DNA from: Terrabacter tumescens
GTDB taxonomy: Bacteria; Actinomycetota; Actinomycetes; Actinomycetales; Dermatophilaceae
Assembly: GCF_014646815.1 (NCBI RefSeq)
Contig: NZ_BMNZ01000004.1
Location: 457,103-521,102, forward strand
Length of the DNA: 64,000 nt
Direction of reading: 5' to 3'
Part shown: one piece after another, positions 2,999-19,130 of the stretch
Numbering within the stretch: the stretch's first letter is position 1
Layout: every line of letters starts with the position of its first letter
Made by a program: the position numbers and the translations under genes
Notes under the pieces: model-generated
What the model was told of the DNA's origin: nothing
What the model saw: the letters and a program-made list of their open reading frames with translations, nothing else
Databases searched by the model: none

Positions 2999-3517
2999 AT
3001 GAGACGCCTCACCATCGCCGCCGCAGCGGTCGCCGCCCTCGTGCCGGCCACCCTCGGCCTCGTCGGCAACAGCTCCTTCGCCCAGAGCGTCCCGGCCCGC
3101 GTGCCGGCCTCCGCCCAGGTCGTCCCCGAGTCCGGTGACGACAACCCCCACACGGGCACGCCGGTGGCCACGCCCATGCCCAGCCGCACCACCGAGGTCG
3201 GTGACGACCACGGCGGTGACCGTCCCCGCGCCTCGCGCACCGAGGCCGGTGACGACCACGGCGGCGACCGACCGCGCGACTCGCGGACCGAGGCCGGTGA
3301 CGACCACGGTGGCCGGGTGGCCTCGGGGTCGTCGTCGGGCTCGTCGGGCTCGTCGGGCTCGTCGGGCTCGGGATCGTCCGGCTCCGGGTCGTCGCGCTCG
3401 GGGGGCGACGACTCGGCGTCGAGGCACTCAGGCTCCGACGACTCCGGCTCGCACCGTTCGGGCTCGCACTCGTCGGGTGGCCACGGCTCCGACGACTCGG
3501 GTGGTGACGACCACTGA
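2999..3517 (+). CDS. Secreted Asp/His/Ser/Gly-rich repeat protein of unknown function
   Basis: The 172-aa product begins with a Sec-type signal peptide (MRRLTIAAAAVAALVPATLG, cleavage near residue 30). The mature part has 16-residue repeats containing GDDHGGDRPR, two full copies and a partial third encoded by exact 48-bp DNA repeats starting at 3191, 3239 and 3287. A Ser-Gly linker of about 30 residues follows, then a tail rich in His, Asp and Ser that ends DDSGGDDH. I do not recognise a family. The acidic and His-rich composition would suit cation binding outside the cell; that is inference. It lies 44 bp before the sensor kinase and may be its target or partner. ATG 2999 was chosen over GTG 2981 because it gives a clean signal peptide. 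Confidence 0.75.
   Translation: MRRLTIAAAAVAALVPATLGLVGNSSFAQSVPARVPASAQVVPESGDDNPHTGTPVATPMPSRTTEVGDDHGGDRPRASRTEAGDDHGGDRPRDSRTEAGDDHGGRVASGSSSGSSGSSGSSGSGSSGSGSSRSGGDDSASRHSGSDDSGSHRSGSHSSGGHGSDDSGGDDH
3191..3313 (+). repeat. 48-bp in-frame tandem repeat within the secreted protein gene
   Basis: Two complete units (3191-3238 and 3239-3286) and a 27-bp partial third each encode TE(V/A)GDDHGG plus a variable RPRxSR segment. Being a multiple of three, changes in copy number would keep the frame open. Confidence 0.85.
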
Positions 3518-10866: not shown

Positions 10867-12213
10867 ATGACGATCCTCGCCGTCGACTTCGGGTCGACCT
10901 TCACCAAGGGCGCCCTCATCGGCGACGACGGCGCCGTGCTCGGCACGGCGTCGACGCCGACGACGGGCACCCAGGGGCGCGGCGACATCCTCGACGGCTA
11001 CCGGACGTTGCGGTCCGCGCTCGAGGTCCCGGACGACGCCGTCGTGCGGGCCTGCTCGAGCGCGGGTGGCGGGTTGCGGCTCGCGGTCGTCGGCTACGAG
11101 CGCACCGTCACGGCCCAGGCCGGGCACCGCGTGGGCCTCTCGGCGGGGGCCAAGGTCGTCCACGTGGCGGCGGGGGAGCTGACGACCGCCGACGTCGCGG
11201 CCGTCCGCGCCGCGCGCCCCGACCTGGTCCTGCTCGTGGGGGGCACCGACGGCGGCAACCGCAACGTGCTGCTGCACAACGCCGCCCGGTTGGCCAAGGG
11301 CGCCATCGGGGGTCACGGTGCGCACGCCGTGCCGATCGTCGTCGCCGGCAACGTCGACGCCCGCGACGAGGCGGCGGCGCTGCTCGCGACGACCGGCCGG
11401 CCGACCGTCCTCGCCGACAACGTGCTGCCGCAGATCGGCGTCATCGCGCCGGAGTCGGCGCGGGCCGCGATCCGCGAGGCGTTCCTCCGGCACGTCATCG
11501 GCGGCAAGGGGCTGTCGCGCGACCCGGCGTTCGCCGCGATGGTCGAGGCGGCCACCCCCGACGTCGTCCTGGGCGGTGTCGAGGTGCTCGCCTCGGTGAC
11601 CGACGGTGACGTCGTGGTCGTCGACGTCGGCGGCGCGACGACCGACGTCTACTCGTGCCTGACGCCCGAGGGCGAGGACGCCGTCCTGCGCAAGGACGTC
11701 GTCGCGCCCCTCTGGCACGCCCGCACCGTCGAGGGCGACCTCGGCATGCGGTGGAACGCCGAGCACGTCCTCGAGGCGGCGGAGTCCGAGCACCTGCTCG
11801 CCTCGGTGCCCGACCCCGACGCGCTGAGGGCGTATGCCGCGCGCGTCCACGAGCGGCCCGGCTCGCTGCCCGTCGACGAGCTCGAGCGGTCGCACGACCT
11901 CGAGCTGGCCCGGCTCGCGGCGCTCGTCGCGGTGCGGCGTCACGCCCGCCCGGCGCAGCCCACCGAGTCGGCGCGGCCGCTCGCCAACGTCGTGGCCCTC
12001 GTCGGCTCCGGGGGAGTGCTGCGGCACAGCGACGCCCTCGGTCGGGACCACGTGCTGGGGGCCGTCCTCGCCGACCACGCGGGCGGCTGGAAGGTGCCGC
12101 GCGCGGCCCGCGCGACGGTCGACACGGCATACCTCCTCTTCGCCATCGGCCTCCTGGCCACCGACCCCGGGCACCGGCACCTCGCCGAGACGATCGCCAC
12201 TCACCTCCTCTAA
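10867..12213 (+). CDS. GlmL/MutL-family protein (glutamate-mutase accessory ATPase type), orphan
   Basis: An ASKHA-fold nucleotide-binding protein of 448 aa. The phosphate-1 motif is ILAVDFGSTFTKGALI at residues 3-18 and the second is VVVDVGGATTDVYS around 240. GGTDGGN and NVDARDEA match the GlmL family, which sits with cobalamin-dependent glutamate mutase or aminomutases and is thought to reactivate or chaperone them. No mutase or B12 gene is nearby, so its client is unclear. ATG 10867 lies 20 nt after metB. It ends at 12213, one base before the repeat array. Confidence 0.82.
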   Translation: MTILAVDFGSTFTKGALIGDDGAVLGTASTPTTGTQGRGDILDGYRTLRSALEVPDDAVVRACSSAGGGLRLAVVGYERTVTAQAGHRVGLSAGAKVVHVAAGELTTADVAAVRAARPDLVLLVGGTDGGNRNVLLHNAARLAKGAIGGHGAHAVPIVVAGNVDARDEAAALLATTGRPTVLADNVLPQIGVIAPESARAAIREAFLRHVIGGKGLSRDPAFAAMVEAATPDVVLGGVEVLASVTDGDVVVVDVGGATTDVYSCLTPEGEDAVLRKDVVAPLWHARTVEGDLGMRWNAEHVLEAAESEHLLASVPDPDALRAYAARVHERPGSLPVDELERSHDLELARLAALVAVRRHARPAQPTESARPLANVVALVGSGGVLRHSDALGRDHVLGAVLADHAGGWKVPRAARATVDTAYLLFAIGLLATDPGHRHLAETIATHLL

Positions 12214-12214
12214 C

Positions 12215-12310
12215 CGTCGAAAGGCCAAAGTTCGCGGGTCCTCACCCGTCGAAAGGCCAAAGTTCGTGGGTCTTTGCTCGTCGAGAGGCCAACGTCCGCG
12301 ACCTGTCTGG
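12215..12310 (+). repeat. Left 32-bp repeat array: three direct units flanking the DUF559 gene
   Basis: Units start at 12215, 12247 and 12279, an exact 32-bp period. All share CGTCGA(A/G)AGGCCAA followed by GT(T/C)CG. Units 1 and 2 are nearly the same for 25 bp, and unit 3 is more diverged at its right end. The array begins one base after the glmL stop and ends 92 bp before the DUF559-gene ATG. The right array at 13394-13489 is the same sequence family in inverted orientation. Confidence 0.9.
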
Positions 12311-12402
12311 GCGTTGTCCACATCCCTATGCCGGGGCACGGCGTGACCCACAGGCTCGTCAAGCGCATGGCGCACCGTGCTTGCAGGCGGAAGCGTCGGC
12401 CC

Positions 12403-13392
12403 ATGGAATCCCAGGCACTCCCGCCCGACCTGCTCCTGCGGCCGTTCCGCACGCAGGACGCCCTCGCGAGAGGAGTGACGCCCTCTCGTCTCAGGGCGGG
12501 TGACCTCTGGACACCCACGCCTGGTGTCAGGACCGCCGAGATCCCGATGAACCTGCGGGAGCGGGCAGCTGCATTCGCCGCCGTGGCGCCGCAGGAGTTC
12601 GCTTTCGCCCACGCCACGGCCGCTCGGCTCCTCGGCATCCCCTTGCCGTATGCGTTGGAGGAGGACCCGGACATCCATATCGTCACGTGCACCGCCGCCA
12701 ACCGCATTCGACGCGGCGAGGTGCGGGGTCACCGCGGGTTGGAGTCGCGCCGTGTGGTCGAGGTGCACGGGCTGCCCGTCGTGGGGCCCGCCGACACCTG
12801 GGCGGACCTGGGGGAGTACGTCGGCGCTGGGCTGCCCGTTGGGCTGGACGACCTGATCGTGGCGGGCGATTCGGCGGCAAATCTGCTCGGCGAGCTCGCT
12901 CCGCTCAAGAGGGCCATCGAGTCCAGAGTCAGGCCCCGCGGGAAGGTGACCCTGACGTTTGCGCTCCCGCGTGTCCGGATGGGCTCATGGTCACCCATGG
13001 AAACCCGCAGTCGTCTCATGGTCATGAGGGCCGGGCTGCCCGAGCCGAAGCTCAATGCGCCTGTTGTGAGCCGTTCGGGCGACTGGCTCGGTTTCGGCGA
13101 CCTGGTCTGGGAGGAGCAGCGTGTCGTCGGCGAGTTCCTCGGCGTCGAGTTCCACACCCGACTGCGGGATCGCGTCCACGACGGCCTTCGACGCGACCGG
13201 GTCGAGCGAGGCGACTGGGCCGTCGTCGAGATCGTCTCGACCGACGTCTTCGAGCACGACGCCCGTGCTGCGAAGCTGCGAGAGCTCGCAGGTTTTCTCG
13301 GGGTCAACCCTCATCTGCTCGATGTCATGTCCGCTGCACCGCAGTTCTTCGCGCCCGCGCAGTTCGCTAGGCCTCGTCGTCGACGGTCCTAG
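12403..13392 (+). CDS. DUF559/AbiEi-like protein: N-terminal winged helix, C-terminal Vsr-type nuclease-like domain
   Basis: The 329-aa product belongs to a large actinobacterial family of uncharacterised proteins. The N-terminal segment PFRTQDALARGVTPSRLRAG resembles the AbiEi antitoxin-type winged helix. The middle has AFAHATAARLLGIPLP and LPVVGPADTWADLGE. The C-terminal SPMETRSRLMVMRAGLPEP, GFGDLVWEEQRVVGEF and GVEFHT align with the DUF559/Vsr-like PD-(D/E)XK fold, but the usual EYDG core is EFLG here, so one acidic residue is replaced and activity may be lost. Codon use is visibly less GC-biased than in neighbours (TTG, CGT, GTT), a sign of transfer. It is enclosed by inverted 32-bp repeat arrays. 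ATG 12403 fits the family's N-terminus; an in-frame start at 12367 is possible. Confidence 0.78.
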   Translation: MESQALPPDLLLRPFRTQDALARGVTPSRLRAGDLWTPTPGVRTAEIPMNLRERAAAFAAVAPQEFAFAHATAARLLGIPLPYALEEDPDIHIVTCTAANRIRRGEVRGHRGLESRRVVEVHGLPVVGPADTWADLGEYVGAGLPVGLDDLIVAGDSAANLLGELAPLKRAIESRVRPRGKVTLTFALPRVRMGSWSPMETRSRLMVMRAGLPEPKLNAPVVSRSGDWLGFGDLVWEEQRVVGEFLGVEFHTRLRDRVHDGLRRDRVERGDWAVVEIVSTDVFEHDARAAKLRELAGFLGVNPHLLDVMSAAPQFFAPAQFARPRRRRS

Positions 13393-13393
13393 C

Positions 13394-13489
13394 GTGTGCG
13401 CACCTGCAACCTTGGCCACTCGACGGTGGGGGACCCGCAAACATTGGCCACTCGACGCTGGGGAACCCGCAAACATTGGCCACTCGACG
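13394..13489 (-). repeat. Right 32-bp repeat array: three units, inverted relative to the left array
   Basis: Units end at 13425, 13457 and 13489, again an exact 32-bp period. On the reverse strand each begins CGTCGAGTGGCCAA. Units 2 and 3 continue TGTTTGCGGGT and match the left units 1-2 apart from a few positions. The innermost unit, right after the gene's stop codon, is the most diverged, as is the innermost unit on the left. Confidence 0.9.
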
Positions 13490-13512
13490 GTTGAGGGTTT
13501 TGGGGAGATGGC

Positions 13513-13549
13513 GAACGGGCCGGTCCCCTTTTGGGGAACCGGCCCGTTC
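13513..13549. terminator. Bidirectional hairpin terminator between the DUF559 gene and greA
   Basis: Left arm GAACGGGCCGGTCCCC and right arm GGGGAACCGGCCCGTTC pair with one bulged base around a TTTT loop. It lies between two converging genes, 24 bp after the right array and 20 bp before the greA stop. Confidence 0.85.
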
Positions 13550-13569
13550 GGGTCAGACGGGTGTGGCCG

Positions 13570-18161: not shown

Positions 18162-19130
18162 ATGGCGATCTACAAGAAGGGTGCCGATCCGGTGGCCCTG
18201 CGGGCCTCGGCGGAGCGGATCACGGGCCACGCGCGCGAGTGCGAGACCGTCAAGAGTGACGCGAGCCGTGCGGTCCACGCCCTGAAGGGCCAGTGGGGCG
18301 GCGCCGACCTCGACCACCTGATGAACCGCTGGCCCCCGGTGGAGGCCCAGCTGACGCAGTTCGGGACCGACCTCGGCAAGCTGGCCGAGGCGCTGCGCCG
18401 CAATGCGGGCGCCCAGGACACGACGAGCGGTCAGGGCGCCGGCGGCAGCGGTGGCCCCGGGGGAGCCGGCGGCAACGGTGGTCCCGGTGGGGGCAACGGC
18501 ATCCCCGGCTACGACCTCCTCAAGTCGATCTGGAGCCCGATCAAGGGGCTCGGCACCGCCGTGGGCTTGCTCGGCACGAGCATGAAGATCAGGAACTTCC
18601 TGTCCAACCTCGGCAGCTGGGACAGCGCGACCGGGGTGTTCGCCAACCTCAAGAACGCGTGGAAGACCGGCCGGCTGGCCGAGTTCGGCGAGGCGCTGGC
18701 GCCGAAGAACTGGGGCTCGCTGTCCCGCTTCCTGCCGTCCCTGGCGGAGGGTGGGGCGCTGGCCCGCAGCCTGGGCACCGTGGGCAAGGCGCTCGGCCCG
18801 ATCGGCGTCGCGTTCGGTGGCTTCACGGTCGCCAACGACATCTCGGAGGGCAACTACGGGCGGGCCGGCTACGACTCGGTGATGACCGGCCTGGGAGCCG
18901 CGGCCCTGCTGACGCCGCCTCCGGTCGACGTCGTGTGCGGCATCGCCGCCGGCGGCATGGCCGTGGGGCAGCTCGTCTACGACAACTGGGACACGATCAC
19001 CGACTTCACCTCGGACGCCGCCGACGCCGTCGGTGACTTCACGTCCGACGCGGTCGACGCGGTCGGTGACTTCGCCTCCGGCGCCGCTGACACCCTGGGC
19101 GACGTCGCCGACGCCGCGTGGCCCTTCTGA
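18162..19130 (+). CDS. WXG100-domain protein with hydrophobic C-terminal domain, candidate type VII effector
   Basis: The 322-aa product has an N-terminal WXG100 helical hairpin (residues 1-85; turn motif WGGADLDHL at about 46) as in type VII secretion substrates. A Gly-rich linker at about 90-115 follows (GSGGPGGAGGNGGPGGG). The C-terminal domain has amphipathic and hydrophobic helices (ALGPIGVAFGGFTVANDISE, then a GLGAAALLTPPPVDVV hairpin) and ends in three imperfect repeats of VGDFTSDA(A/V)DA. The layout resembles long WXG/LXG effectors; membrane insertion is inference. No secretion machinery is nearby. AGGGGAG lies 8 nt before the ATG. Confidence 0.72.
   Translation: MAIYKKGADPVALRASAERITGHARECETVKSDASRAVHALKGQWGGADLDHLMNRWPPVEAQLTQFGTDLGKLAEALRRNAGAQDTTSGQGAGGSGGPGGAGGNGGPGGGNGIPGYDLLKSIWSPIKGLGTAVGLLGTSMKIRNFLSNLGSWDSATGVFANLKNAWKTGRLAEFGEALAPKNWGSLSRFLPSLAEGGALARSLGTVGKALGPIGVAFGGFTVANDISEGNYGRAGYDSVMTGLGAAALLTPPPVDVVCGIAAGGMAVGQLVYDNWDTITDFTSDAADAVGDFTSDAVDAVGDFASGAADTLGDVADAAWPF

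Follow-up and report, generated by a model that had tools for sequence, protein, structure and literature searches.

The window analysed here, a stretch of 64,000 nucleotides of Terrabacter tumescens DNA (NZ_BMNZ01000004.1 positions 457,103-521,102; its own genome is labelled G000 and the contig G000:C4), contains what appears to be a system that spreads repeats and is based on a protein other than the known one. Dispersed palindromic repeats occur in many bacterial genomes, and the accessible passages of the literature that we found tie only RAYT-type transposases to them. In the window, three direct 32-bp units, an AbiEi/DUF559-like gene and three inverted 32-bp units follow one another. The repeat family is dispersed, related genes have lineage-matched repeats, and one species has amplified one unit type. 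We consider that these arrays probably belong to a REPIN-like repeat system with a non-RAYT partner protein, for which the 32-bp units would be the cognate sites. The elements of the locus, in window coordinates, are as follows.

12215..12246, plus strand: left unit 1, outermost (32-bp repeat)
12247..12278, plus strand: left unit 2 (32-bp repeat)
12279..12310, plus strand: left unit 3, innermost, most diverged on the left (32-bp repeat)
12403..13392, plus strand: gene, 329 aa, with an AbiEi-like N-terminal part and a DUF559/Vsr-like C-terminal domain
12586..12810, plus strand: AbiEi-model match within the gene, aa 62-136 (profile match)
13000..13134, plus strand: stretch with the codons of E200 (13000-13002), D233 (13099-13101) and E244 (13132-13134) (alignment)
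13075..13302, plus strand: C-terminal DUF559-like domain, aa 225-300 (hhalign comparison with nine stand-alone DUF559 proteins)
13394..13425, minus strand: right unit 1, innermost, most diverged on the right (32-bp repeat)
13426..13457, minus strand: right unit 2 (32-bp repeat)
13458..13489, minus strand: right unit 3, outermost (32-bp repeat)
13512..13550, no strand assigned: terminator-like hairpin behind greA (hairpin search)

The initial annotation had described units starting at 12215, 12247 and 12279 on the left and ending at 13425, 13457 and 13489 on the right, with a period of exactly 32 bp on both sides, and Tandem Repeats Finder recovered both arrays at this period. Its further observations on the locus were borne out as well, namely, a core shared by all six units (CGTCGANNGGCCAANGT, 0 mismatches), a left array beginning one base further on from the glmL-like stop (TAA, 12211-12213) and a right array beginning one base further on from the stop of the gene itself (13390-13392), the innermost unit as the most diverged on each side, and codons less GC-biased in the gene (GC3 0.81) than in its neighbours (0.97 in glmL, 0.98 in metB, and 0.95 in greA). 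The two arrays form 84-nt inverted arms that are 74% complementary. At up to 2 mismatches, the core matched no place in the window beyond the six units, and shuffled sequences gave a mean of 1.3 matches at the same threshold, with 1 of 100 reaching six. By Pfam, the neighbouring genes matched Cys_Met_Meta_PP (metB-like), MutL (glmL-like), and GreA_GreB (greA, convergent). The gene is under purifying selection, with dN/dS values of 0.08-0.35 across 15 pairs of six orthologues. No known RNA family was found at its gathering score between 12000 and 13700, and the 96-nt left array folded no better than shuffles (z -0.96). Since a hairpin similar to that at 13512..13550 could be read by eye behind greA in three array-free congeners, we took it as an element outside the arrays and do not favour terminator function alone as their explanation. 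Two further tandem repeats of the window, at 3190-3313 (48 bp x 2.6) and 19002-19091 (33 bp x 2.7), may be coding, as their periods are multiples of three.

The name DUF559, which the gene had first been given, holds for its family and not for the window protein, for which no Pfam match was obtained at E<=1. Among 23 aligned homologues, DUF559 (PF04480) matched 12 and the nuclease family MTES_1575 matched nine, and comparison of the family profile with nine stand-alone DUF559 proteins using hhalign gave a probability of 95.5 and an E value of 1.5e-8 over the C-terminal domain. An AbiEi model matched aa 62-136 of the window protein (1.9e-5), and the AbiEi model with the most matches found 15 of the 23 homologues. 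None of the acidic residues E200, D233, and E244 varies among the 23 aligned homologues, and by the PD-(D/E)XK pattern we take them to be candidate catalytic residues. Many homologues read E-x-Q at this point, with a Q two residues after E244; the window protein has a leucine at that position, which makes the activity of this copy uncertain. The family profile also gave five weak matches among solved structures (E 0.05-0.08), four of which are named endonucleases or mobile intron protein, including 3r3p ('mobile intron protein', E 0.075). Judged by profile and acidic residues, the gene family is probably a group of DUF559/Vsr-like PD-(D/E)XK nucleases, an assignment made at family level and with an activity that is predicted.

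Gene and arrays were found to be linked at the glmL/greA site in relatives. The six genomes with the gene at this junction (the window, G008, G004, G007, G006, and Humibacillus xanthopallidus DSM 21776), whose orthologues share 68-87% identity, all have both arrays, and a gene standing there without arrays was found in 0 of 6. The junction was also inspected in relatives without the gene, as the initial annotation had advised, and the three congeners concerned (G001, G003, and G005) proved to be empty sites in which glmL adjoins greA and no unit occurs at up to 2 mismatches. G002 (74% complete) was left out of this comparison, as greA was not found there. The unit type varies between species, being GGCCAAAGTTYGCGG-like in G000, G008, and G004 and GGCCACGTCYGGCC-like in G006 and G007, and the left and right arrays of one species agree.

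The repeat family extends well beyond this site. In the genome of the window, the core CGTCGARNGGCCA was counted 104 times, versus 16 for a reversed control pattern. Congeners with an orthologue have 201 (G004), 115 (G006), 101 (G007), and 64 (G008) copies, and congeners without one have 17 (G001), 20 (G003), and 33 (G005, which is without a close homologue), the controls in these congeners giving 7-12; the two groups differ by a rank test over eight genomes, the genome of the window included (p = 0.018, relatives not being independent). Beyond the genus, only G034 (177) and G024 (24) depart from generally small counts. In G034, which belongs to another genus, the 177 are matches to the 13-nt core, and the homologue of this genome (L059:1345-2555) has flanks made of a variant whose period is 22 bp and whose tail is different. 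The setting of the copies was analyzed in 31 clusters of at least two units each, drawn from 28 loci picked among the matches listed. Fifteen lie between convergent genes, 13 between tandem genes, two between divergent genes, and one in a called ORF; convergent settings thus make up 15 of 30 intergenic clusters versus 8 of 58 neighbouring gene pairs of the window (p = 0.0006), and the median distance to 3' ends is 16 nt. In the common array form, plus units are followed by minus units, and two such centres were found to fold (z -9.3 and -7.6). A paralogue of the same genome, gene B, has a different flank repeat with 93 copies versus 1 in the control. Paralogue genes B and C occupy the same sites in the different species compared, and the gene itself was therefore not seen to move. 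Ordinary genes also lie between facing arrays of the window's repeat. An alpha/beta hydrolase gene does so in G000 (L037:3060-4462, G000:C5; named by Pfam), where one array comprises eight similar units and a degenerate ninth, and in G004 (L219:1345-2709, G004:C10). A TroA-like gene, named from its translation, stands between five plus and four minus units in the incomplete genome G002 (L218:1509-2537, G002:C55).

Eight of the dispersed elements were traced in seven congeners, which gave 48 site-genome pairs with both flanks. Units were present in 40 of these pairs, comprising all 26 with an orthologue in the genome and 14 of 22 without (p = 0.0008), and unit numbers at the traced sites were higher in genomes with an orthologue (p = 2e-5). 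The content of a site can differ considerably, one traced site having one inverted pair in G005, four units in G008, twelve units mostly of its own type in G004, and six units of another type in G006. The G004 unit type, which stands beside the gene of G004 itself, was found at up to one mismatch in 63 copies in G004, two in G000, one in G001, and none in the six other genomes of the genus. The G006 type is less exclusive, with 15 copies in G006, 13 in G002, 11 in G007, seven in G000, four in G005, one in G008, and none in three genomes. We read these patterns as a refilling of old sites with units of the current type, to which slippage inside arrays may contribute; array growth could also stem from slippage and ordinary gene conversion. 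At another traced site (L189, G008:C13:230716-231288), part of the core has become the short tandem run CATCGAGAGGC.., with six core matches that do not follow the 32-bp period.

Homologues of the gene were found in 46 of 58 genomes, its own included, with up to eight matches per genome. Of 53 locus ids, 49 loci entered the flank comparison (L097 gave no match; L069, L100, and L111 dropped out by flank length; L074 and L110 are the same locus and were both counted). An inverted flank match of at least 18 was observed at 34 of the 49 loci, versus 2 of 294 cross-pairs and 5 of 289 random window intervals, and one of at least 20 at 30 loci, versus 1 of 294 and 0 of 289, respectively. Without the five loci of lineage A and the double-counted one, 28 of 43 reached 18. 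The remaining 15 of the 49 loci score below 18, and two of them, L051 and L053, have arrays further out. Flank repeats differ between loci, and flanks outside the genus often consist of a palindrome some 60 nt long. The window gene falls, in a tree of 60 proteins, into a clade of 36 rows, of which 30 have flank repeats, two have arrays further out (L051 and L053, marked by hand), and four have none; a separate clade of nine rows has seven without repeats and two that were counted as having them (L078 and L101) but score only 19.

To look for dispersal of the flank repeats, 14 of these from 12 genomes were combined in a single query. Nine of the 12 query genomes gave 11-74 matches, beyond what the two flanks of the gene itself yield on both strands, and the copies amount to about half of the matches because palindromes match on both strands. 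G013 (six matches) and G027 and G016 (four each) remained at about the yield of the gene's own flanks, so that dispersal beyond the gene is not supported in these three. Two genomes without a segment in the joined query gave 0 matches, and, among the matches listed, genomes matched their own segments, with the exception of three rows swapped between G039 and G057, which belong to one genus. Over 22 nt, units of the same gene lineage differ between genomes by a mean of 5.8 (2.9-9.0, 22 pairs), units of paralogues within one genome by 11.0 (8.1-14.6, six pairs), and all other pairs by 10.1 (6.8-13.9, 38 pairs), with overlapping ranges; within lineage A, the distance of the G006 and G007 units from the others is 8.4-9.0 of 22, a value also seen between some unrelated pairs. 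The tag shared by the compared units is built in, as units were chosen by their TCGA start. These distances suggest that the repeats track gene lineage more than genome.

The REPIN-like system that we consider probable would work as follows. The gene sits midway in an inverted array of its putative cognate 32-bp units, and gene-free arrays of the same family are dispersed in intergenic DNA, mostly near gene ends. Within the unit, the variable half would be recognised by the N-terminal part of the protein; the nuclease domain would nick or cut at units, and repair of the break from another array would copy units between sites. Through such copying by repair, arrays would grow longer, old units would take on the current type, and a new site would occasionally arise. 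For AbiEi and Rv2827c, the available part of PMC7319586 describes binding to their own promoters at inverted repeats of 23 bp, and this fits the proposed reading because the conserved core spans about 22 nt of the 32-bp unit. Furthermore, Caulobacter VsrA, a protein with a DUF559 domain to which the available part of PMC12907096 attributes a DNA-damage response of a methyltransferase mutant, would fit nuclease activity in cells.

Binding of inverted repeats in promoters by AbiEi and Rv2827c (PMC7319586, in the part available) also speaks for a purely regulatory reading, in which the repeats are binding sites of an AbiEi-type autorepressor, which would act on its own gene at the left array and would organise DNA or end transcription at the dispersed arrays, copying being incidental. 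The left array does lie upstream of the gene, and the dispersed arrays do lie near 3' ends, but the right array stands behind the gene, the hairpin behind greA is found with and without arrays, and unit type and number vary at shared sites, with 63 copies of one type in one species, which is unexpected of fixed regulatory sites; we thus regard this explanation as unlikely. A cis-acting element alone, which was the first of two readings offered in the initial annotation, likewise leaves the dispersed copies, the array behind the gene, and the species-specific amplification unaccounted for.

The central position of the gene, as if inserted into a gene-free inverted array, also brings to mind a homing-type selfish gene whose nuclease cuts such arrays so that the gene is copied in. 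The weak nuclease matches of the family profile, 3r3p included, point in this direction, and EDxHD homing endonucleases are reviewed in PMC3943268, the available part of which presents them with group I introns; the name DUF559 is absent from that text. However, the three empty glmL/greA sites have no unit at all, so that no pre-existing target was seen there, paralogues B and C stand at the same sites in the compared species, and the structure matches are weak, which together make homing a quite improbable origin of the arrangement. A further reading, in which the DUF559-like gene is a passenger and the repeats spread through slippage and recombination or through some unrelated transposase, is highly improbable: slippage can lengthen tandem 32-bp arrays, G005 has copies without a close homologue, and other genes also lie between arrays, but many homologues have their own distinct flank repeat, paralogues within one genome differ, similar flanks accompany DUF559 genes in other phyla, and no Y1 match was obtained in nine genus genomes with PF01797, the only transposase family searched.

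The interpretation of the initial annotation is partly supported. Its second reading, a mobile or REPIN-like cassette, stands insofar as the gene and its arrays occur at glmL/greA either together or not at all and the repeats form a dispersed family, but we rejected a gene-exclusive cassette that ends in the arrays, since most copies lie in arrays without the gene and the hydrolase and TroA-like genes are enclosed as well. Scattering of the repeats without relation to DUF559 genes, named at the outset as a finding that would refute the proposal, is literally what the copies show; yet many loci tie a repeat family to its own gene lineage.

In comparison with described systems, the arrangement resembles RAYT/REPIN in anatomy. 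In the available parts of PMC2817692 and PMC3116915, a RAYT gene is flanked by two inverted copies of its repeat, the repeats are scattered genome-wide as inverted extragenic pairs, and one genome can have several RAYT genes, each with its own repeat. As in these systems, the partner gene here lies between inverted repeat copies (in the window, in its orthologues, and at 34 of 49 loci), and there are many mainly extragenic copies (30 of 31 clusters are intergenic) with inverted pairs able to fold (z -9.3 and -7.6). In contrast to RAYT/REPIN, the partner is an AbiEi-like/DUF559 protein and not PF01797, the Terrabacter units form 32-bp tandem arrays, and, instead of a GT(A/G)G head with an imperfect palindrome, the units have the head CGTCGA and the left array folds no better than shuffles (z -0.96). 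The Y1 transposase model PF01797 had no match in any of the nine genus genomes but matched 5 of 14 control genomes; the arrays are therefore RAYT/REPIN-like in anatomy without being a member of that class, and we discarded RAYT-driven repeats as an explanation.

A second possible affiliation was with the CGTC-tagged REPs (Di Nocera 2013), one of the two REP super-families surveyed there and apparently without a dedicated transposase. The available part of that work (PMC3733652) describes them as having CGTC at one end, forming inverted dimers, and lying near the 3' ends of convergent genes, with units that are stem-loops of 8-9 bp stems, a short loop, and a short unpaired tail; the string 'actinobacteri' is absent from its main text. 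The window units likewise have CGTC at one end but, judging from the folding of the left array, were not seen as stem-loops, and membership was set aside on this feature. The alphaproteobacterial DUF559 genes examined have flank repeats of other sequences (CCCTCACCCTAACCCTCTCCCC and similar), so that the CGTC-REP connection is a lead only. Compared with the type IV toxin-antitoxin system AbiE, a two-gene operon with an AbiEii nucleotidyltransferase-like toxin, the window protein has a part that matches AbiEi models and is a candidate for the winged-helix N-terminal domain of AbiEi; unlike AbiE, the window has a single gene between its arrays and no AbiEii partner among the neighbours (metB-like, glmL-like, and greA), a nuclease-like C-terminal part, and dispersed repeats. 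With VsrA, the gene family has a related C-terminal domain in common; in the text of PMC12907096, 'palindrom' is absent and 'repeat' occurs twice. In the open-licence literature, as far as its texts were accessible, we found nothing that connects DUF559 or AbiEi proteins with REP-like or REPIN repeats.

If the REPIN-like reading is true, a testable role could be assigned to a widespread, so far uncharacterised protein family. The DNA target could moreover be predicted for many members from their own flanks, which would yield naturally matched pairs of protein and target on which the reading of DNA by such proteins could be studied. A broader proposition, on which our judgement is evenly balanced, is that DUF559/Vsr-like nucleases, stand-alone or fused to AbiEi-like DNA-binding parts, are the dedicated partners of a second large, RAYT-independent REPIN-like class across bacteria (Actinomycetota, Alphaproteobacteria, Deinococcota, and perhaps more), whose repeats would be spread and homogenised by nuclease-triggered repair and not by transposition. 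On this broader view, candidate enzymes would become available for REP families described as being without one.

DUF559 genes beyond actinobacteria were sampled from a plasmid collection, in which 46 records had a DUF559 match; 14 of these were examined, without matched control genes. Inverted repeats on both sides (at least 20) were present at eight of the 14 loci, six alphaproteobacterial and two from Deinococcus. The other six had no upstream/downstream match of at least 20, and three of them (L122, L125, and L134) have a strong one-sided palindrome. The Neisseria locus has a weak palindrome (19.0 versus up to 16.5 in shuffles), and the palindromes of two cyanobacterial loci are not or barely above shuffles. 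Cross-pairs reached 20 in 4 of 182 cases, all between relatives. The flank repeat of S. meliloti occurs in at least 39 places of a 3.7-Mb record and that of Shinella in at least 38 places of 4.6 Mb; the Sphingomonas repeat occurs in nine places and the Deinococcus repeat in only two of its record. The Sphingomonas DUF559 gene (L124:1465-1875) stands alone in a conserved gene cluster, between sufB and sufC, as if inserted, and the DUF559 genes of the two Deinococcus (L127:1468-1806 and L133:1468-1809) stand singly at different positions of the hpa cluster, likewise conserved, again as if inserted.
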